Shown here: positions 5,024 to 64,000 of the stretch, one piece after another
Numbering within the stretch: the stretch's first letter is position 1
Layout of the letters: every line of letters starts with the position of its first letter
DNA from: Candidatus Nanopelagicales bacterium
GTDB lineage: Bacteria > Actinomycetota > Actinomycetes > Nanopelagicales > Nanopelagicaceae
Assembly (NCBI GenBank): GCA_030834095.1
Contig: JAURGA010000005.1
Span: 1-64,000, forward strand
DNA length: 64,000 nucleotides
Direction: 5' to 3'
Made by a program: the position numbers and the translations under genes
The notes under the pieces: model-generated
The model's input: the letters and a program-made list of their open reading frames with translations, nothing else
Told to the model about the DNA's origin: nothing
Databases searched by the model: none

Positions 5024-5079
5024 TTTAATTCATTTTACCTATAGAGTTCGTCACACATGTGAGGTGAAAACTCCCATCC

Positions 5080-5092
5080 TGGCAAATTGCCA
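5080..5092. promoter_or_regulatory. 13-nt palindrome upstream of the secreted-protein gene
   Basis: TGGCAA-A-TTGCCA is a perfect 6-1-6 inverted repeat 34 nt before the proposed GTG start at 5127. It could be an operator. Its counterpart gene at 61893 also has a 6-1-6 palindrome upstream, but of different sequence, so the function is open. Confidence 0.25.
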
Positions 5093-5126
5093 AAGGCATT
5101 ACCAAGGTTTGGGGAGTCTAAAGAAA

Positions 5127-6218
5127 GTGGTTCATTCCAAGGGAGATTTTTACAACGATGATCCAGCTGAGTCAACTCGTGTCCGAGGAAAGCGAAAATT
5201 TTCATCCGTCCTTGCATTCCTTCTGCTTCTTGCTGGCGGAACTTATTTAGTCCAGACCACGCTTGCCGCTAACATCGCGCTAAACACAGGTTCACCTATT
5301 GAATTTGGTCAAGGTGTAACAGCTACAACAGCATGCTCTGGAGCAACCAACTTAACAATCACACCAAATTCAACTTTCATAAATGTTTCCGCTGGCGGAG
5401 CACATTATCTTTCATCGCTTAGAGTTTCAAATATACCTTCAGGTTGTGATGGCAAGGATTTCACAATAAACGCCTATGGAAATTCGGATAGCACAGCCCT
5501 AGCTGTTTTCAATTCAGCGTCAAAAAACGTAGTTGTTTATAGCAATGCCGGAACATTTGAACTTGGCGCAGGATCCCTTTCTGGAGCAAGCATTACAAGC
5601 GGTTCAGGAACATTCACGGTCACCTTTACAGACCCAGTTGCTACTTCTGGATCAGTGTTTAAGGTCTCCTTGCAAAGTGGAGGACACACAGTTGTATCCT
5701 GTGCAACCGGGGGAGTTTGTGTTGTTGGTAATACCGGTCCTGGTGGTGGCAAAGTCTTTTACGTTGCTAGTTCGCCATTTGCCTGTGGCCCAACAGTTGC
5801 AGCAAGTTGCACTTATCTCGAAGTTGCACCAAGTGATTCCCAAGAAAATTTCTGTGATGCTGGATCTACTGTAGGTGATGCTGGAAGCACGCGCCTTGCA
5901 ACTTTGAATCCAGACACAATTGGTGCTGGATTTGCGAGCACACTTGTAATTACAGCAGGTTGTAATTCGGGCGCTGCCGTTACTTCAAGGGCTTATCGCG
6001 GTGGTTCGTTTAGTGACTGGTATTTGCCAAACCGAGCAGAATTAGTTCAGGTTTACAACAATAGAGTGACAATCGGTGGCTTTATTTCCGCACAATACTG
6101 GCAATCTTATGCGAACAGTTCAACACGATTCACGGCTCATAACTTTGGTGACGGTTATGCATACAATGAATTTCCAAAATCAACTGTGAACCAATTCCGT
6201 CCAATCCGGGCTTTCTAA
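5127..6218 (+). CDS. Secreted surface protein with C-terminal DUF1566 (Lcl_C-like) domain
   Basis: A paralog of the gene at 61893. I chose GTG 5127 over the upstream ATG at 5064 because GGGGAG precedes it by 10 nt and the product (363 residues) then matches the 364-residue paralog. A short cytoplasmic tail contains DFYNDDP (residues 7-13), then a basic stretch (RGKRK), a hydrophobic helix (about 25-43) and a TLA|A signal-peptidase-like site near 47. Next come a beta-rich region with cysteines and a GNTGPGGGKVFYVA linker. The C-terminus has the DUF1566 pattern: a DWYLPNRAELVQ motif, IGGF, a YWQS segment and a terminal RPIRAF. Families with this domain are extracellular. The role is unknown, with adhesion or surface structure the likeliest guess. 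Confidence 0.75.
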   Translation: MVHSKGDFYNDDPAESTRVRGKRKFSSVLAFLLLLAGGTYLVQTTLAANIALNTGSPIEFGQGVTATTACSGATNLTITPNSTFINVSAGGAHYLSSLRVSNIPSGCDGKDFTINAYGNSDSTALAVFNSASKNVVVYSNAGTFELGAGSLSGASITSGSGTFTVTFTDPVATSGSVFKVSLQSGGHTVVSCATGGVCVVGNTGPGGGKVFYVASSPFACGPTVAASCTYLEVAPSDSQENFCDAGSTVGDAGSTRLATLNPDTIGAGFASTLVITAGCNSGAAVTSRAYRGGSFSDWYLPNRAELVQVYNNRVTIGGFISAQYWQSYANSSTRFTAHNFGDGYAYNEFPKSTVNQFRPIRAF

Positions 6219-28365: not shown

Positions 28366-28453
28366 AAAAAATCTCCCTCAAGATTTTGAGGGAGGAAGCT
28401 TGGGCAAAGTAGAAAATAAATTCTCTAGAAGCCCGACCTTCCTCCGAGGTCGG
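28366..28453 (-). terminator. Expression platform of the cobalamin riboswitch (terminator/antiterminator)
   Basis: On the minus strand CTCCCTCAA pairs with TTGAGGGAG (28373-28394, 9 bp) and is followed by T6 directly before btuF ATG, forming an intrinsic terminator whose 3' arm is the Shine-Dalgarno. GGAGGAAG (28438-28445) is complementary to CTTCCTCC (28391-28398) in the 5' arm, giving an antiterminator. A competing 7-bp hairpin CCGACCT/AGGTCGG (28433-28453) hides GGAGGAAG. The inferred logic is that bound cobalamin favours the hiding hairpin and so the terminator. Confidence 0.75.
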
Positions 28454-28582
28454 ATACATCAATAATGTGTCAGGCGACCTGGCTCGGATTTGGACTTAAA
28501 TTGCTTTAAATCAAATCTCTACAGTTGCGGGACAGCGCCGGATTTTCACCGGACTTCGCTAAACGCATTACTACTGGTCAAG
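28454..28582 (-). ncRNA. Cobalamin (B12) riboswitch aptamer
   Basis: Read on the minus strand, the leader holds the diagnostic core of the Cobalamin class: AAGTCCGGTGAAAATCCGGC, then GCTGTCCCGCAACTGTA, and the B12 box AGCCAGGTCGCCTG (near 28473-28486). A P1 helix can form between TAGTAATG near 28573 and CATTATTG near 28460. It precedes btuF and should lower btuFCD expression when cobalamin is plentiful. Outer boundaries are approximate. Confidence 0.92.
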
Positions 28583-28730
28583 CACGAGGCTTTTCTCAGC
28601 GCCGCAAAATTAGCACTACTTCAGGACTTTATGCCAGAACAGCAGTAAATCGAATTGGCGAGTCCGATGGGAATCATTTGCCCGGCGCCAAAGGCGAATA
28701 ATTCGCTCACCAGAGACTAGGCTTTTAATT

Positions 28731-59999: not shown

Positions 60000-60755
60000 T
60001 TACTTCCGCTTTTTGGCCTTGAACAAAACTTCATCAGCACCGATGCGGTGAGCCTTGAAAGAATTCACAGGTGAATCACTCGGATATCCGATAGCCATTC
60101 CGCAGAGGAGTCGGTAATCCTTTGGAATCTCAAACTCTTTTCTTACAACGTCATCCCAGATATTGACTGCACCCTGTGCGCATGTGCCAAGCCCGTGACC
60201 ATGTGCAGACAGCATCAAGTTCTCCATCATTAAACCTGCGTCTGATGCCGCGTAGACATTAAGACTTTTGTGGATATAAATAAACATTTCGACCGGTGCA
60301 CCAAAGAACGAATAGTTCTTGCCCCATTGCTTGTCTCTGGCATCACGATCACCGTGTTTTACGCCAAACAGTTCATAGAGTTCTTTACCAACTCTCTGGG
60401 CTCTTGGTCGAAGTTCTGGCACATACGGCTTAACAATCATTCGGTTGCTAGTTGGCAATCCATATCGTGAATAAACAAGGCGCAATTTATTCTTTAAGCC
60501 CTTGCGCATAAGTCTTGAAAGCACGGTCCAACGAGAAAGAAATTCGCCACTGATCCGATCTCTTACATCACCGGTAGCCACTGCAATTTTGAATGGTCTT
60601 GTGTTTGACCAGCTTGGCGCGGTCAGAGCATCAGTCAGAATCTGATCGATTATGTCCTGTGGAACCGGAGTAGGAAGAAAATCGCGAGTCGATCTGCGAG
60701 AAGCTAAAAAATTAGAGACCCATGCTGCATCGCGGTTGTTTGATTCCAAACTCAT
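60000..60755 (-). CDS. Nitroreductase family protein
   Basis: A 251-residue FMN-dependent reductase. The N-terminal RRSTRDF and APSWSNTRPFKIAVA motifs form the FMN phosphate site, and LGTCAQGAVNIW lies in the C-terminal half. Such enzymes reduce nitroaromatics, quinones or enones with NAD(P)H. It is the last gene before the tRNA fragments that mark the accessory region. Confidence 0.88.
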   Translation of the reverse strand: MSLESNNRDAAWVSNFLASRRSTRDFLPTPVPQDIIDQILTDALTAPSWSNTRPFKIAVATGDVRDRISGEFLSRWTVLSRLMRKGLKNKLRLVYSRYGLPTSNRMIVKPYVPELRPRAQRVGKELYELFGVKHGDRDARDKQWGKNYSFFGAPVEMFIYIHKSLNVYAASDAGLMMENLMLSAHGHGLGTCAQGAVNIWDDVVRKEFEIPKDYRLLCGMAIGYPSDSPVNSFKAHRIGADEVLFKAKKRK

Positions 60756-60761
60756 TTGGAA

Positions 60762-60767
60762 ATCTTA
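60762..60767 (-). promoter_or_regulatory. -10 box of the nitroreductase gene, leaderless layout
   Basis: TAAGAT on the minus strand ends 6 nt before ATG 60755. Its -35 would fall inside the tRNA fragment at 60782. Confidence 0.4.
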
Positions 60768-60781
60768 CAACAGAGCTATTT

Positions 60782-60813
60782 TGGTGGACCGTACTGGGAT
60801 CGAACCAGTGACC
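60782..60813 (-). pseudogene. tRNA 3'-end fragment (T-arm, acceptor, CCA), possible att remnant
   Basis: On the minus strand this reads GGTCACTGGTTCGATCCCAG then the acceptor strand and CCA: a complete T-arm (ACTGG/CCAGT around TTCGATC), 3' acceptor strand ACGGTCC, discriminator A and CCA. No D-arm, anticodon arm or 5' acceptor strand follows. It matches the fragment at 61643 except at two acceptor positions. It is best explained as the displaced 3' end of a tRNA left by integration. Confidence 0.8.
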
Positions 60814-60928
60814 ATATAGATCATGTTCCACAACTAGTAGAAATTCCTACTTGGTTCACATTTAACACCATGACGCAGACAAATACCTCTTGGATCCCAA
60901 ATATTCCGAGATTGGAGGCAGGTTTGGG

Positions 60929-61072
60929 CTATTTCTTCCGTCTGCCATCTACTTTGGGCCTATTTTCAAAACTTCTTAAATCCTCTACCAATTCCTGAAT
61001 GGAAGTTACATGTTTGTAGGACTTGGATTTCCAAGCCTCAGTCATGCCGTCAAAGCGTCCAACAACGCTCAC
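60929..61072 (-). CDS. Possible 47-residue small protein
   Basis: A GTG at 61072 (or ATG 30 nt further in) opens a frame to TAG at 60929. The product is charged and helical-looking (SIQELVEDLRSFENRPKVDG near its end, basic tail). No Shine-Dalgarno and no recognised domain. It could be a real small protein of the accessory segment or a gene fragment. Confidence 0.25.
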   Translation of the reverse strand: MSVVGRFDGMTEAWKSKSYKHVTSIQELVEDLRSFENRPKVDGRRKK

Positions 61073-61166
61073 GGGAGATAGTTCTTATGGCCACCGTGGC
61101 AGAGCGCATGCAATCGGCTACATACAAGCCTTGATCGAGGTTGTTACCAACAATTAATCACCTCAG

Positions 61167-61172
61167 TAGACT
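61167..61172 (+). promoter_or_regulatory. -10 box of the DUF2975 gene, leaderless layout
   Basis: TAGACT ends 6 nt before ATG 61179. TTACCA, 17 nt upstream, could be the -35. Confidence 0.45.
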
Positions 61173-61178
61173 GAACTA

Positions 61179-61628
61179 ATGAGTGAGTTTCGCTTTATCG
61201 TTGTTAAAGCCGGGTTCCTCTTGCTTTTTCTTGGTTTAACGCTCGTTCAATTTCTTTCTTTTCCTGGTCAGTTTGAACACATGCGCAGGACTCAGGGTAT
61301 CTCTCTGCTTATTGAAGTTGCCCTAACAATCGTGGTTGGACTTTGGATACTCTGCGGACAGGTAGCTCTATATTTTTTGTGGCAAATTGTGGAAAGCATG
61401 CGGCGACAGCAGTTTTATTTAGTTCAGAATCTCAATTGGATTGCACGGCTATTGATGTGTTTCAAAGTCGCATCGGTGATACCAGCTGTTCTTTTTCTGA
61501 TGCTAGTTCCTGAAGCAGATGATCCTGGATTCTTTGTCATGCTGACGATTGTTGCTTTGTTCCTTTTTTCACTAACCGCTACAACTTCACTCTTAAAGGA
61601 TCAGATCGCCTCCAAGATTTCGAAGTGA
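61179..61628 (+). CDS. DUF2975-like membrane protein
   Basis: A 149-residue protein with four helices (about 7-27, 41-70, 88-108, 116-137). The loop after helix 2 (WQIVESMRRQQFYLVQNLNWI) is shortened here to its type: a basic MRR followed by an aromatic, as in DUF2975 proteins. No helix-turn-helix partner gene, often found beside DUF2975, is visible. It is the only clear gene between the two tRNA fragments, so it may be cargo of a small integrated element. Confidence 0.65.
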   Translation: MSEFRFIVVKAGFLLLFLGLTLVQFLSFPGQFEHMRRTQGISLLIEVALTIVVGLWILCGQVALYFLWQIVESMRRQQFYLVQNLNWIARLLMCFKVASVIPAVLFLMLVPEADDPGFFVMLTIVALFLFSLTATTSLLKDQIASKISK

Positions 61629-61642
61629 TTTTCGCGTTCAGA

Positions 61643-61687
61643 TGGTGGACGATACTGGGATCGAACCAGTGACCCCCACAATGTCAA
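61643..61687 (-). pseudogene. 3' half of tRNA-Val(GAC), ending at the anticodon loop; att-like
   Basis: On the minus strand: anticodon loop TTGACAT (anticodon GAC), 3' anticodon stem TGTGG, variable GGGTC, T-arm ACTGG-TTCGATC-CCAGT, acceptor ATCGTCC, A, CCA. The 5' anticodon stem CCACA and everything before it are missing; the sequence diverges exactly at the loop edge (61688). A break at the anticodon loop is the classical crossover place of tyrosine recombinases that integrate into tRNA genes. Confidence 0.88.
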
Positions 61688-61861
61688 TCCGTTCGAATAC
61701 TTCCGCAAGCGTCCCATGGGGATTGTTCTTTCCAAATATTAATGGAAATGGAGCGTGAGAATCTCTACATATATGAATTATCTCCAGATTAGCCACACAC
61801 CTTTGCTTTACCTGCCCCTCTGTCACCTTTAGACTCGACCATACAGTTTTATTCAGTTTTG

Positions 61862-61874
61862 TAGCCCAGGGCTA
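61862..61874. promoter_or_regulatory. 13-nt palindrome upstream of the second DUF1566 gene
   Basis: TAGCCC-A-GGGCTA is a perfect 6-1-6 inverted repeat ending 18 nt before GTG 61893. It has the same architecture, but not the same sequence, as the palindrome before the paralog at 5127. Confidence 0.25.
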
Positions 61875-61892
61875 GTTAGGCAGGTCAGCTAA

Positions 61893-62987
61893 GTGTCTAA
61901 CCTCGACTTCTACAACGATGACCCAGTCGACTTCAAACGCCCAAAATCGAAGAAGCGCATCTCTGGAGTTCTAGCCCTTATCGCAGCGCTAATTGGTGGC
62001 ACTTTATATATTCAAACTACTCTTGCTGCAAATATCTCACTTAACTCAGGCTCAGTTGAATTTGGTCAAGGTATTACCCAGACCGTTGCCTGCTCGGGAT
62101 CACAATCTTTAACAATAACTCCACTCTCAACTTTTGTTAATGCAAGTGGCGGAGGGTCATATAAGTTCTCCGGAATAACAGTCGATAACATCCCAACTAG
62201 CTGTCAAGATACCGACTTCACCTTCTCTGCCTACAACAACGTTGCTGCAAGCGCAGCGCAAGCGATCTTTAATACTTCAAGTACTAGAGCCGTTGTTTAT
62301 ATGACAAGTACTAACGCATTTGAAGTCGGAACCGGTGGCAGCGGGCTAAGCGTTGCAACAAACTCAGCATCATCATTTACCCTCACCTTCACAGCCCCAG
62401 TTGCCCCATCAAGTGCTGTCAATAAAGTAACTGTTGAGAGCGCAGCGCATACGGCAATCACTTATAACGTAGGAGATACGGGTCCAGGCGGTGGAAAGAT
62501 TTTCTATGTTGCAGATACATCATTTTCTTGCGGTCCAACCCTGAACTTAAGTTGTAATTACCTAGAGGCAGCACCGCCTCTCTGGAATGCTGGTGGGGCA
62601 GACCCCGGTCTAACTTGGGCTCAAAGCACTTATTTCACTACATCCGTCGGCGGAACTGAAACTGGAATCGGTCTGGGTTTTCAAAATACCCGAGCAATTA
62701 TTTTGCAAGGAAATACCGATACTGCCACCTCTGCTGCAGCACTAGCCGATGCATATACGGTCACAGTTTCCGATGTTGTCTATGACGATTGGTATCTGCC
62801 ATCAAAGAATGAACTAAATAATCTTCGGGATAAGCGAGTAACTGTTGGTGGTTTTGCGAACTACTACTACTGGTCTTCATCTCAGTACAATGCGTCCAAT
62901 GCGTGGTCCCATAACTTCTCCCAGGTCAGCCCAACCGCCGTTGGCAAGAACGGCCCCTTCTACATTCGTCCAATTCGAGCTTTTTAG
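61893..62987 (+). CDS. Secreted surface protein with C-terminal DUF1566 (Lcl_C-like) domain, second copy
   Basis: A 364-residue paralog of the protein at 5127, starting at GTG with AGGCAGG upstream. It has the same plan: N-terminal DFYNDDP (5-11), basic KSKKR, a hydrophobic helix (about 23-41), TTLA|ANI cleavage-like site near 45, a beta-rich domain (FGQGITQTVACSGS), the linker GDTGPGGGKIFYVAD, and a DUF1566 end with DWYLPSKNELNNL, VGGF, YYWSSSQ and a terminal RPIRAF. It lies just inside the proposed tRNA-Val island. The role is unknown; surface attachment or interaction is inferred. Confidence 0.75.
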   Translation: MSNLDFYNDDPVDFKRPKSKKRISGVLALIAALIGGTLYIQTTLAANISLNSGSVEFGQGITQTVACSGSQSLTITPLSTFVNASGGGSYKFSGITVDNIPTSCQDTDFTFSAYNNVAASAAQAIFNTSSTRAVVYMTSTNAFEVGTGGSGLSVATNSASSFTLTFTAPVAPSSAVNKVTVESAAHTAITYNVGDTGPGGGKIFYVADTSFSCGPTLNLSCNYLEAAPPLWNAGGADPGLTWAQSTYFTTSVGGTETGIGLGFQNTRAIILQGNTDTATSAAALADAYTVTVSDVVYDDWYLPSKNELNNLRDKRVTVGGFANYYYWSSSQYNASNAWSHNFSQVSPTAVGKNGPFYIRPIRAF

Positions 62988-63151
62988 CCCTTCATTTATT
63001 TACCTATTCACCTTTTAAATTTTGAATGGGTGAATGATTTGTTGGATTATGAAACCCTTGGTCGTGAGCGTGGACGATACCTAATTTGTCTTCAGAGGGG
63101 AATATACCTATCTGTGATCTGGTTTAAGTTATTGGGATAAGGGAGATAGTT

Positions 63152-63504
63152 TTGAAACAATTCAAGAAGGGCTGGTGGAGAATTCAGCCTAAAGGATCAG
63201 GTCTTACAAGTGGGGCGGAATTTGGACTGCGAATCAACCGTATAGTTTTGTTAGTGAATCTGAATTTAATATGGACATTACTTTGAATGAACAATTCAAC
63301 CCAACCGAGTGGACGTATCCGATTGATAACGGAATTGAAGCGCGAATGCCTTTCTATCAACCTGGGCAGTGCTACGTTCTATCGACCACAAACGACAATT
63401 GGTGGTGGGGAACAATTGTTTCGACGTGCGGCTGGACCCCGGCCCCCTGGATCGAAGGCACAGGCGGGCAAGACCCCGGAATCATTTGGTATTGGGTCCG
63501 ATGA
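63152..63504 (+). pseudogene. Small gene interrupted by a -1 frameshift at a G-run
   Basis: TTG 63152, preceded by AGGGAG (5 nt), opens a frame MKQFKKGWWRIQPKG that is protein-like up to about 63212. From GGGG (63212-63215) the -1 frame continues as GGIWTANQPYSFVSE and runs to TGA at 63504. One extra G would join the two into about 117 residues. The joined product is Trp-rich with two cysteines, has no signal peptide and no recognised domain. The downstream half alone could start at ATG 63271 (77 residues). Sequence error, real mutation or programmed shift are all possible. Confidence 0.5.
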
Positions 63505-63530
63505 CGACTGAATCTAGGTTCGTCTAAACT
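63501..63530 (+). promoter_or_regulatory. Promoter of the partial secreted-protein gene, leaderless layout
   Basis: ATGACG (63501-63506), 18-nt spacer and TAAACT (63525-63530) precede GTG 63537 by 6 nt, with no Shine-Dalgarno. Confidence 0.45.
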
Positions 63531-63536
63531 CAACAC

Positions 63537-64000
63537 GTGAGGCTCAGGGTTAAATCCGCGATTACTTCGGTAATCCTTGCTGGGCTTGCATCGGTGTTTA
63601 TTTCAGCACCTGCACATGCCGCTGTTTCGACTTTGAATTTAGCATCTACAACCGCAAATGCTGCTGTTGATCCTAACTTTCAAGTTGGAACCACATTAAG
63701 TGCAACGAGTTGGGCATCCGCATATGGTGCCACTCAATGGTGGGGAACAACATCAATTTCTGGTGGTGCTATTTCAAGTACCTGGATCGCATGTGACACC
63801 ACTCAAGGACAGACTTGCCAAAACACGACGAGGTATTTCAGATATCGATTCAACATGCCATCGGATTACTCATCCCCTTCGCTCACAATCAAGTGGCTTG
63901 TAGATAATTCTGGCTCAATTTATTTAAATGGAACACAAATTCCAAACTCAATTCACTCGGGTGGGAATAACAGCACTAACACGGCAACTAGAACAACGGG
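63537..64000 (+). CDS. N-terminal part of a large secreted protein, cut by the window end
   Basis: From GTG 63537 the frame is open to the last base (154 codons). A clear signal peptide (MRLRVKSAITSVILAGLASV, cleavage near PAHA|AV at 28) is followed by a Ser/Thr/Asn-rich beta-type region with two cysteines (IACDTTQGQTC) and VDNSGSIYLNGTQIPNSI, a pattern seen in carbohydrate-binding or adhesin-like sandwich domains. The full length and domains lie outside the window. It is probably cell-surface cargo of the island. Confidence 0.7.
   Translation, partial: MRLRVKSAITSVILAGLASVFISAPAHAAVSTLNLASTTANAAVDPNFQVGTTLSATSWASAYGATQWWGTTSISGGAISSTWIACDTTQGQTCQNTTRYFRYRFNMPSDYSSPSLTIKWLVDNSGSIYLNGTQIPNSIHSGGNNSTNTATRTT

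Follow-up and report, generated by a model that had tools for sequence, protein, structure and literature searches.

The 64,000-nucleotide stretch of a Candidatus (Ca.) Nanopelagicales bacterium analyzed here (the window) carries, near its right end, 3' pieces of tRNA-Val(GAC), which raises the question of how these pieces came to lie apart from an intact tRNA gene. The window comprises bases 1-64000 of contig C3 (64,432 bp) in a 53-contig, 98%-complete, 1.36-Mb assembly, a metagenome-assembled genome (MAG) built from short reads; the host is a small-genome, probably freshwater actinobacterium. For comparison we used 27 genomes of the genus (this one and 26 others, many of them incomplete) and 296 genomes of the family. 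The region from 60.78 to 64.43 kb very probably forms the left side of an island that grew by accretion at tRNA-Val(GAC), built by integrase-mediated insertion that left a row of cassettes resembling cis-mobilizable elements (CIMEs).

Displaced tRNA ends and the elements between them

An earlier note on this DNA had described two tRNA-Val(GAC) fragments, neither with a 5' half, and had proposed two elements stacked at an integration hotspot. BLAST searches matched 60782-60813 over 32 nt, with 100% identity, to the 3' end of a tRNA-Val(GAC) from the genus. The second fragment, given there as 61643-61687 and as starting in the anticodon loop, matches positions 30-75 of the tRNA-Val(GAC) of relatives at 46/46 positions (100%), so that its extent becomes 61643-61688. 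ARAGORN detected no tRNA in the window; thus both fragments do lack a 5' half. They have a 19-nt core in common, CTGGGATCGAACCAGTGAC, found in the window at 60794 and 61655 only (shuffle expectation 0.01, standard deviation 0.10, with 3 mismatches allowed). The intact tRNA had been expected to match fragment 2; however, it is fragment 1 that matches the 3' end of the genome's own intact tRNA-Val(GAC) exactly, whereas fragment 2 differs from it in the acceptor 3' strand, with ATCGTCC instead of ACGGTCC. The fragments are two alleles of one tRNA, and both are displaced attachment-site halves.

A third remnant at 63053-63080, AACCCTTGGTCGTGAGCGTGGACGATAC, is more decayed than fragments 1 and 2. 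It has 2 mismatches in 28 bp to the version in the related genome G018, with an expectation of 0.00. Since this stretch matches the G018 element end and the acceptor stem, the window holds three displaced ends within 2.3 kb. The proposed stacking therefore stands, but the number of elements does not: at least three insertions, E1, E2, and E3, are stacked at tRNA-Val(GAC) (Table 1). The small left element with its DUF2975 gene corresponds to E1; this gene is present in 1/27 genus genomes. The supposed single right element does carry surface-protein genes and does run beyond 64000, but it consists of at least two elements, E2 and E3. E1 is about 0.8 kb and E2 about 1.4 kb in size, and neither contains a recombinase. 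The E3 surface-type protein, an open frame of 298 amino acids (aa) up to the contig end, has no Pfam match. The halves resembling a left attachment site (attL) are present for E1-E3; E1 and E2 no longer have arm repeats, and E3 is not complete. GC content fails to set the island apart (0.44-0.48 vs. 0.43-0.48).

Table 1. Features at the right end of the window
Feature	Position	Strand	Remarks
Nitroreductase gene	60000..60755	-	PF00881; left-hand neighbor of the tRNA-Val site, chromosomal and conserved
Displaced tRNA-Val(GAC) 3' end no. 1, 32 nt	60782..60813	-	native allele ACGGTCC, with CCA
Remains of element E1	60814..61642		between two displaced tRNA ends; absent from G020
DUF2975 membrane-protein gene, E1 cargo	61179..61628	+	PF11188
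Displaced tRNA-Val(GAC) 3' half no. 2	61643..61688	-	foreign allele ATCGTCC; ends just beyond the anticodon loop
Element E2, one gene	61689..63052		between fragment 2 and the third remnant
Surface protein with Lcl_C C-terminal domain, E2 cargo	61893..62987	+	PF07603
Third remnant: element end (63053-63069) and tRNA-Val acceptor 3' strand (63070-63080)	63053..63080	-	aligned with G000 C10, G001, G018, G008
Start of element E3	63081..64000		reaches the contig end at 64432
Second surface-type protein, E3	63537..64000	+	signal peptide; cut by window and contig end

Outside this region, the window contains an adenosylcobalamin riboswitch on the minus strand at 28429-28585 (Rfam RF01482, 56 bits).

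The empty site and its variable flank

The sole intact tRNA-Val(GAC) found in the assembly lies on the minus strand of another contig, C10, at 1086-1158; the contig starts 1085 bp to its left. Beyond it follow tRNA-Cys and then tRNA-Gly, a conserved Gly-Cys-Val cluster. In G020, the nitroreductase gene, 28 bp of spacer, an intact tRNA-Val, a cupin gene, tRNA-Cys, and tRNA-Gly form one contiguous order. The G020 nitroreductase is 95% identical to that of the window, and G020 aligns to window positions 60756-60813 at 91% over 58 bp, after which the window diverges. This alignment to a locus without the insert, which the earlier note had called for, shows an empty site in the close relative G020 where the window has only the 32-nt fragment. 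From the contiguous order in G020, the right end of C3 and the left end of C10 would be the two sides of one locus, a join that we infer from synteny. Loci that share the Val-Cys-Gly order and homologous flanking genes include those of Ca. Planktophila and Ca. Nanopelagicaceae MAGs, which makes a freshwater, Nanopelagicaceae-like actinobacterium the likely host.

The intact tRNA had been predicted at the far right end of the elements; its orientation is as predicted, but not its contiguity, as C3 ends at 64432. Extension to the right, proposed as a check, stops after 432 bp inside a surface-protein gene, and the intact tRNA was found on C10 instead. No significant second copy of the last 300 bp of C3 was detected that could serve as a bridge to C10. 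The first 257 bp of C10 recur at C28:1-257 with 98% identity; this repeat may be the cause of the assembly break, and it provides no bridge to C3. It covers the region upstream of a surface-protein gene together with the start of its coding sequence; on C10 this gene breaks off a few codons in, and a piece of an ABC-transporter gene comes next. C10 also carries, at 859-905 (L154), a 47-nt 3' fragment of tRNA-Met(CAT), with 100% identity to the tRNA-Met that this genome has at C29:17788. This fragment sits within the island about 180 bp from the intact tRNA-Val, which suggests either a passenger that came from another tRNA site or a switch between two such sites.

Across the genus, the 5' flank of tRNA-Val(GAC) is conserved and the 3' flank varies between genomes. 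At 11/24 loci, the gene closest to the tRNA on its 3' side lacks a homologue at the locus in every other genome, compared to 0/23 loci on the 5' side. Ends resembling attL and the right attachment site (attR) both recur in relatives. Together with the empty site of G020, these results uphold the hotspot. tRNA-Val is also a larger-scale synteny breakpoint: two chromosome backbones reach its 3' side across the genus, with either the genes at 51-60 kb of the window or those at 37-42 kb.

Short tRNA repeats often break assemblies, and in a short-read MAG they could have joined unrelated contigs into an assembly or binning chimera; a run of N inside the G001 fragment would fit this. However, all three remnants, with two alleles, are internal to one contig, and fragment 1 adjoins the very gene that neighbors the intact tRNA-Val in G020. 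The structure also recurs in G018, in L097, and at other tRNAs, which leaves a chimera very improbable.

In G018, a displaced 45-nt half lies near the end of contig C38, and the intact tRNA-Val with its element end near the start of that genome's contig C10; the two contigs overlap exactly over 52 bp, in an 18-bp tandem repeat that forms part of a single reading frame. About 1.8 kb long, the element contains one secreted-protein gene with an HEVLH motif, no Pfam match, and no integrase. Its CIME character, with attL and attR kept and the integration and transfer genes gone, is clear. At locus L097, the intact tRNA-Val and a displaced end are about 1.2 kb apart on the same 253-kb contig; the small genes there include one for a protein like the DUF3054 protein that adjoins the displaced tRNA-Val half of L145. 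In G002, a decayed fragment lies about 600 bp upstream of the nitroreductase gene. Displaced half and intact tRNA have the same orientation in the window and C10, on different contigs, and at both ends in G018 and L097.

These complete elements of 1-2 kb at the same tRNA bear on another explanation, in which one or two large prophages or integrative and conjugative elements (ICEs) occupy the unassembled gap from C3:64432 to C10:1, with E1 and E2 as their edges or as moron genes. This gap could be of any size, and a prophage in tRNA-Val has been reported for Ca. Actinomarinales (PMC7771536). Nevertheless, 3.6 kb of C3 and 1.1 kb of C10 show no phage or conjugation gene, and the full-length integrases of this genome are Xer-like. 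We regard a large element of this type as improbable.

Element ends, integrases, and surface-protein cassettes

An end of about 80 bp next to the intact tRNA-Val is common to G000, G001, G018, and G008. It finishes in CCTGGTCGTAARC, immediately before the tRNA 3' end, and contains GTGTTAGRCAAGTGTTAGGCAAAAG; the arm-type repeats are arranged in tandem, with the generalized motif TGTTAGNNAAGTGTTAGNNAAA. With 1 mismatch allowed, this motif had 33 occurrences in 28/296 family genomes, whereas the reversed-pattern control had 0. The neighborhoods of 30 motif loci were read. An intact tRNA starts 75-89 bp downstream of the motif in 12 of the 30 (Val-GAC 3, Arg-ACG 4, Met 4, Lys 1), and one further locus has a tRNA-Lys cut by the contig end. 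At five of the 30, what lies 75-89 bp from the motif is a 3' piece of tRNA-Lys, displaced and 17-44 nt long. At nine of the 30, a tyrosine integrase (whole, contig-cut, or relic) ends 7-27 bp before the motif; the integrase of G012 matches PF00589 with an E-value of 1.5e-26. The element end is thus a putative integrase arm.

An integrase next to the intact tRNA-Val had been expected. None was found in this genome, at either element end, as far as it is assembled, in agreement with the statement that none is visible in the window; a relic is present at the same place in G001. Before the tRNA-Val arms of that genome, VHLVAQ*VGHRGAMVIATISAHVSDQQAETASSKFAKAVNGVN aligns with LHIVAHRLGHRDPMVTAKTYAHIDADQAINVSLVFAKAVE of the G012 integrase (39 aa, 49%, E-value 2e-5). 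The relic is a dead integrase C-terminus, with an in-frame stop and the Tyr of TYAH lost.

Fragment 2 ends at the anticodon loop, matching G018, L145, and the Met, Leu, and Tyr cassettes; in general, the longer displaced halves (Val, Met, Leu, Tyr) end in or just past this loop. Under accretion, an incoming element would bring an attachment site (attP) bearing a tRNA 3' half, and a tyrosine integrase would cross over in the anticodon loop of tRNA-Val. The incoming 3' half would restore an intact tRNA at one end and displace the older 3' half to the other. Later elements would reuse the rebuilt tRNA, in at least three insertions, to give the row of fragment 1 (native), fragment 2 (foreign allele), and the decayed third remnant at 63053. 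The recombinase would then be lost, or supplied in trans, leaving CIME-like cassettes of one gene each, mostly for secreted or surface proteins. Fragment 2 and the third remnant both have the foreign acceptor allele, which suggests donors from another lineage. If the E1 3' half had at one time been attached to the present 5' half, one mismatch would have arisen in the acceptor stem, presumably mended later by another insertion. The order of events, the acting integrase, and present-day mobility are what we infer from these traces.

Several observations weigh against this scheme. Fragment 1 ends 13-14 nt before the anticodon loop; it is too short to reach it, so its crossover point is not preserved. 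No arm repeats lie beside fragment 2. Some tRNA-Met and tRNA-Leu cassettes end 5-8 bp from the tRNA, which leaves no room for arms; arms are therefore not always present. No full-length phage-type integrase was found in this genome; what it has are two Xer-like genes and, on C8, a stump of 105 aa. The assembly does not include the C3-C10 join, which reads cannot confirm either. The lack of an integrase at the locus and the cassettes that abut a tRNA at 5-8 bp without arm repeats would also fit RecA-type homologous recombination after DNA uptake, acting through the 45-50 bp tRNA-Val 3' halves with no site-specific recombinase at the locus. Random homology ends, however, would not be expected to fall at the anticodon loop, where all halves with enough sequence end (Val, Met, Leu, Tyr). 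Nor would homologous recombination provide arm-type repeats at a fixed distance with an integrase or relic alongside, as also found at the tRNA-Val of G001. We consider it quite improbable.

Other integrases of the genus are located near tRNA-Leu, -Arg, and -Val(TAC) and not at tRNA-Val(GAC). The two at tRNA-Arg have the arm motif in common with the tRNA-Val(GAC) element end. The stump at C8:8102-8419 (L268) is the C-terminal part of a phage-type integrase and resembles one in G019:C2. It adjoins sugar-nucleotide genes, and the first 20 kb of C8 are free of tRNA genes. One viral match to the element end falls within a coding gene on a GC-rich contig and was dismissed as due to chance; an arm-like match lies close to the end of a viral contig of 9.5 kb.

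Relatives of the E2 protein are present in 13/27 genomes, with up to 12 matches each. Some lie in cassettes bordered by tRNA pieces: one gene flanked by a displaced 44-nt Met half and, at 8 bp from its end, by an intact tRNA-Met (L323); one gene with an intact tRNA-Leu(TAA) and a displaced 49-nt half (L350); two gene copies with tRNA-Tyr and a 58-nt half (L360); and a gene between two tRNA-Lys remnants (L348). At L322, L352, and L330, the gene end is 5-8 bp from tRNA-Met or -Leu. Many other copies occur in tandem groups without a nearby tRNA, so the tRNA association is partial. In this genome, copies of the family are found in the window (61893-62987 and 5064-6218) and on C24 and C28, often in tandem and often at contig ends. 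The N-terminus is conserved (GS.EFGQG) and the C-terminus variable, with Lcl_C/DUF1566 in those tested. Domains of the Lcl_C type are known targets of diversity-generating retroelements.

We offer tentatively, as a possibility that we would not call likely, that integrases of the arm-motif type act in trans to shift single Lcl_C surface-protein genes, each with only a tRNA 3' half and without a recombinase, from one to another of tRNA-Val, -Met, -Leu, -Tyr, and -Lys. If true, this would amount to an integron-like exchange of exposed proteins in a streamlined bacterium, possibly under phage pressure.

Comparison with known systems

Integron cassettes hold one gene each and are stacked at one site. 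The cassettes described here are likewise one-gene units stacked at one site; the repeat, however, is a tRNA 3' half, and neither an integron integrase nor attC was noticed, with no search aimed at them.

A three-step model of CIME accretion is outlined in PMC5704250, which reviews Pavlovic et al. 2004. The likeness would lie in attL-like and attR-like ends kept after the loss of integrase and transfer genes, which is clear for the G018 element, and in the stacking of later elements where the end of the target gene had been restored. In contrast to CIMEs, the cassettes here are about one gene long and mostly encode surface proteins, and no ancestor among ICEs or integrative and mobilizable elements (IMEs) was identified.

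Tycheposons, known from Prochlorococcus and also reported in Methylophilaceae, are given in PMC10872708 as elements of 4-200 kb with a recombinase. They resemble the present locus as tRNA-bordered tyrosine-recombinase islands with cargo in streamlined bacteria. The elements here, however, are about 1-2 kb and have no recombinase, and the C3-C10 gap remains unassembled.

Streamlined plankton have flexible genomic islands that grow additively and repeat tRNA 3' ends: fGI1 of Ca. Actinomarinales (PMC7771536) and fGI-2 of Ca. Methylopumilus, in which the last 20 bp of tRNA-Lys recur (PMC10872708). In both, as here, small cassettes were added at tRNA genes and direct repeats of a tRNA part were left, but the lineages are others, and so in part are the tRNAs. 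The integrase arm motif and single Lcl_C cassettes are not described for fGI1 or fGI-2 in the accessible text of these two papers (PMC7771536, PMC10872708). Neither the arm motif across four tRNA targets nor the one-gene surface-protein cassettes were found described in the literature covered, which in its accessible part excludes most subscription journals.

With its empty site, halves, arms, and integrase relic, the present case shows gene-by-gene addition at tRNA genes in a small-genome actinobacterium. The motif TGTTAGNNAAGTGTTAGNNAAA at 75-89 bp from a tRNA is a simple handle in searches for such elements family-wide. Through the link of the cassettes with a multi-copy, variable family of surface proteins, it becomes testable whether tRNA sites serve as a surface-diversification system in plankton. 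The accretion process itself is known from the systems above; the loading of single surface-protein genes without a recombinase of their own is a clean new example of it, in a new host group.

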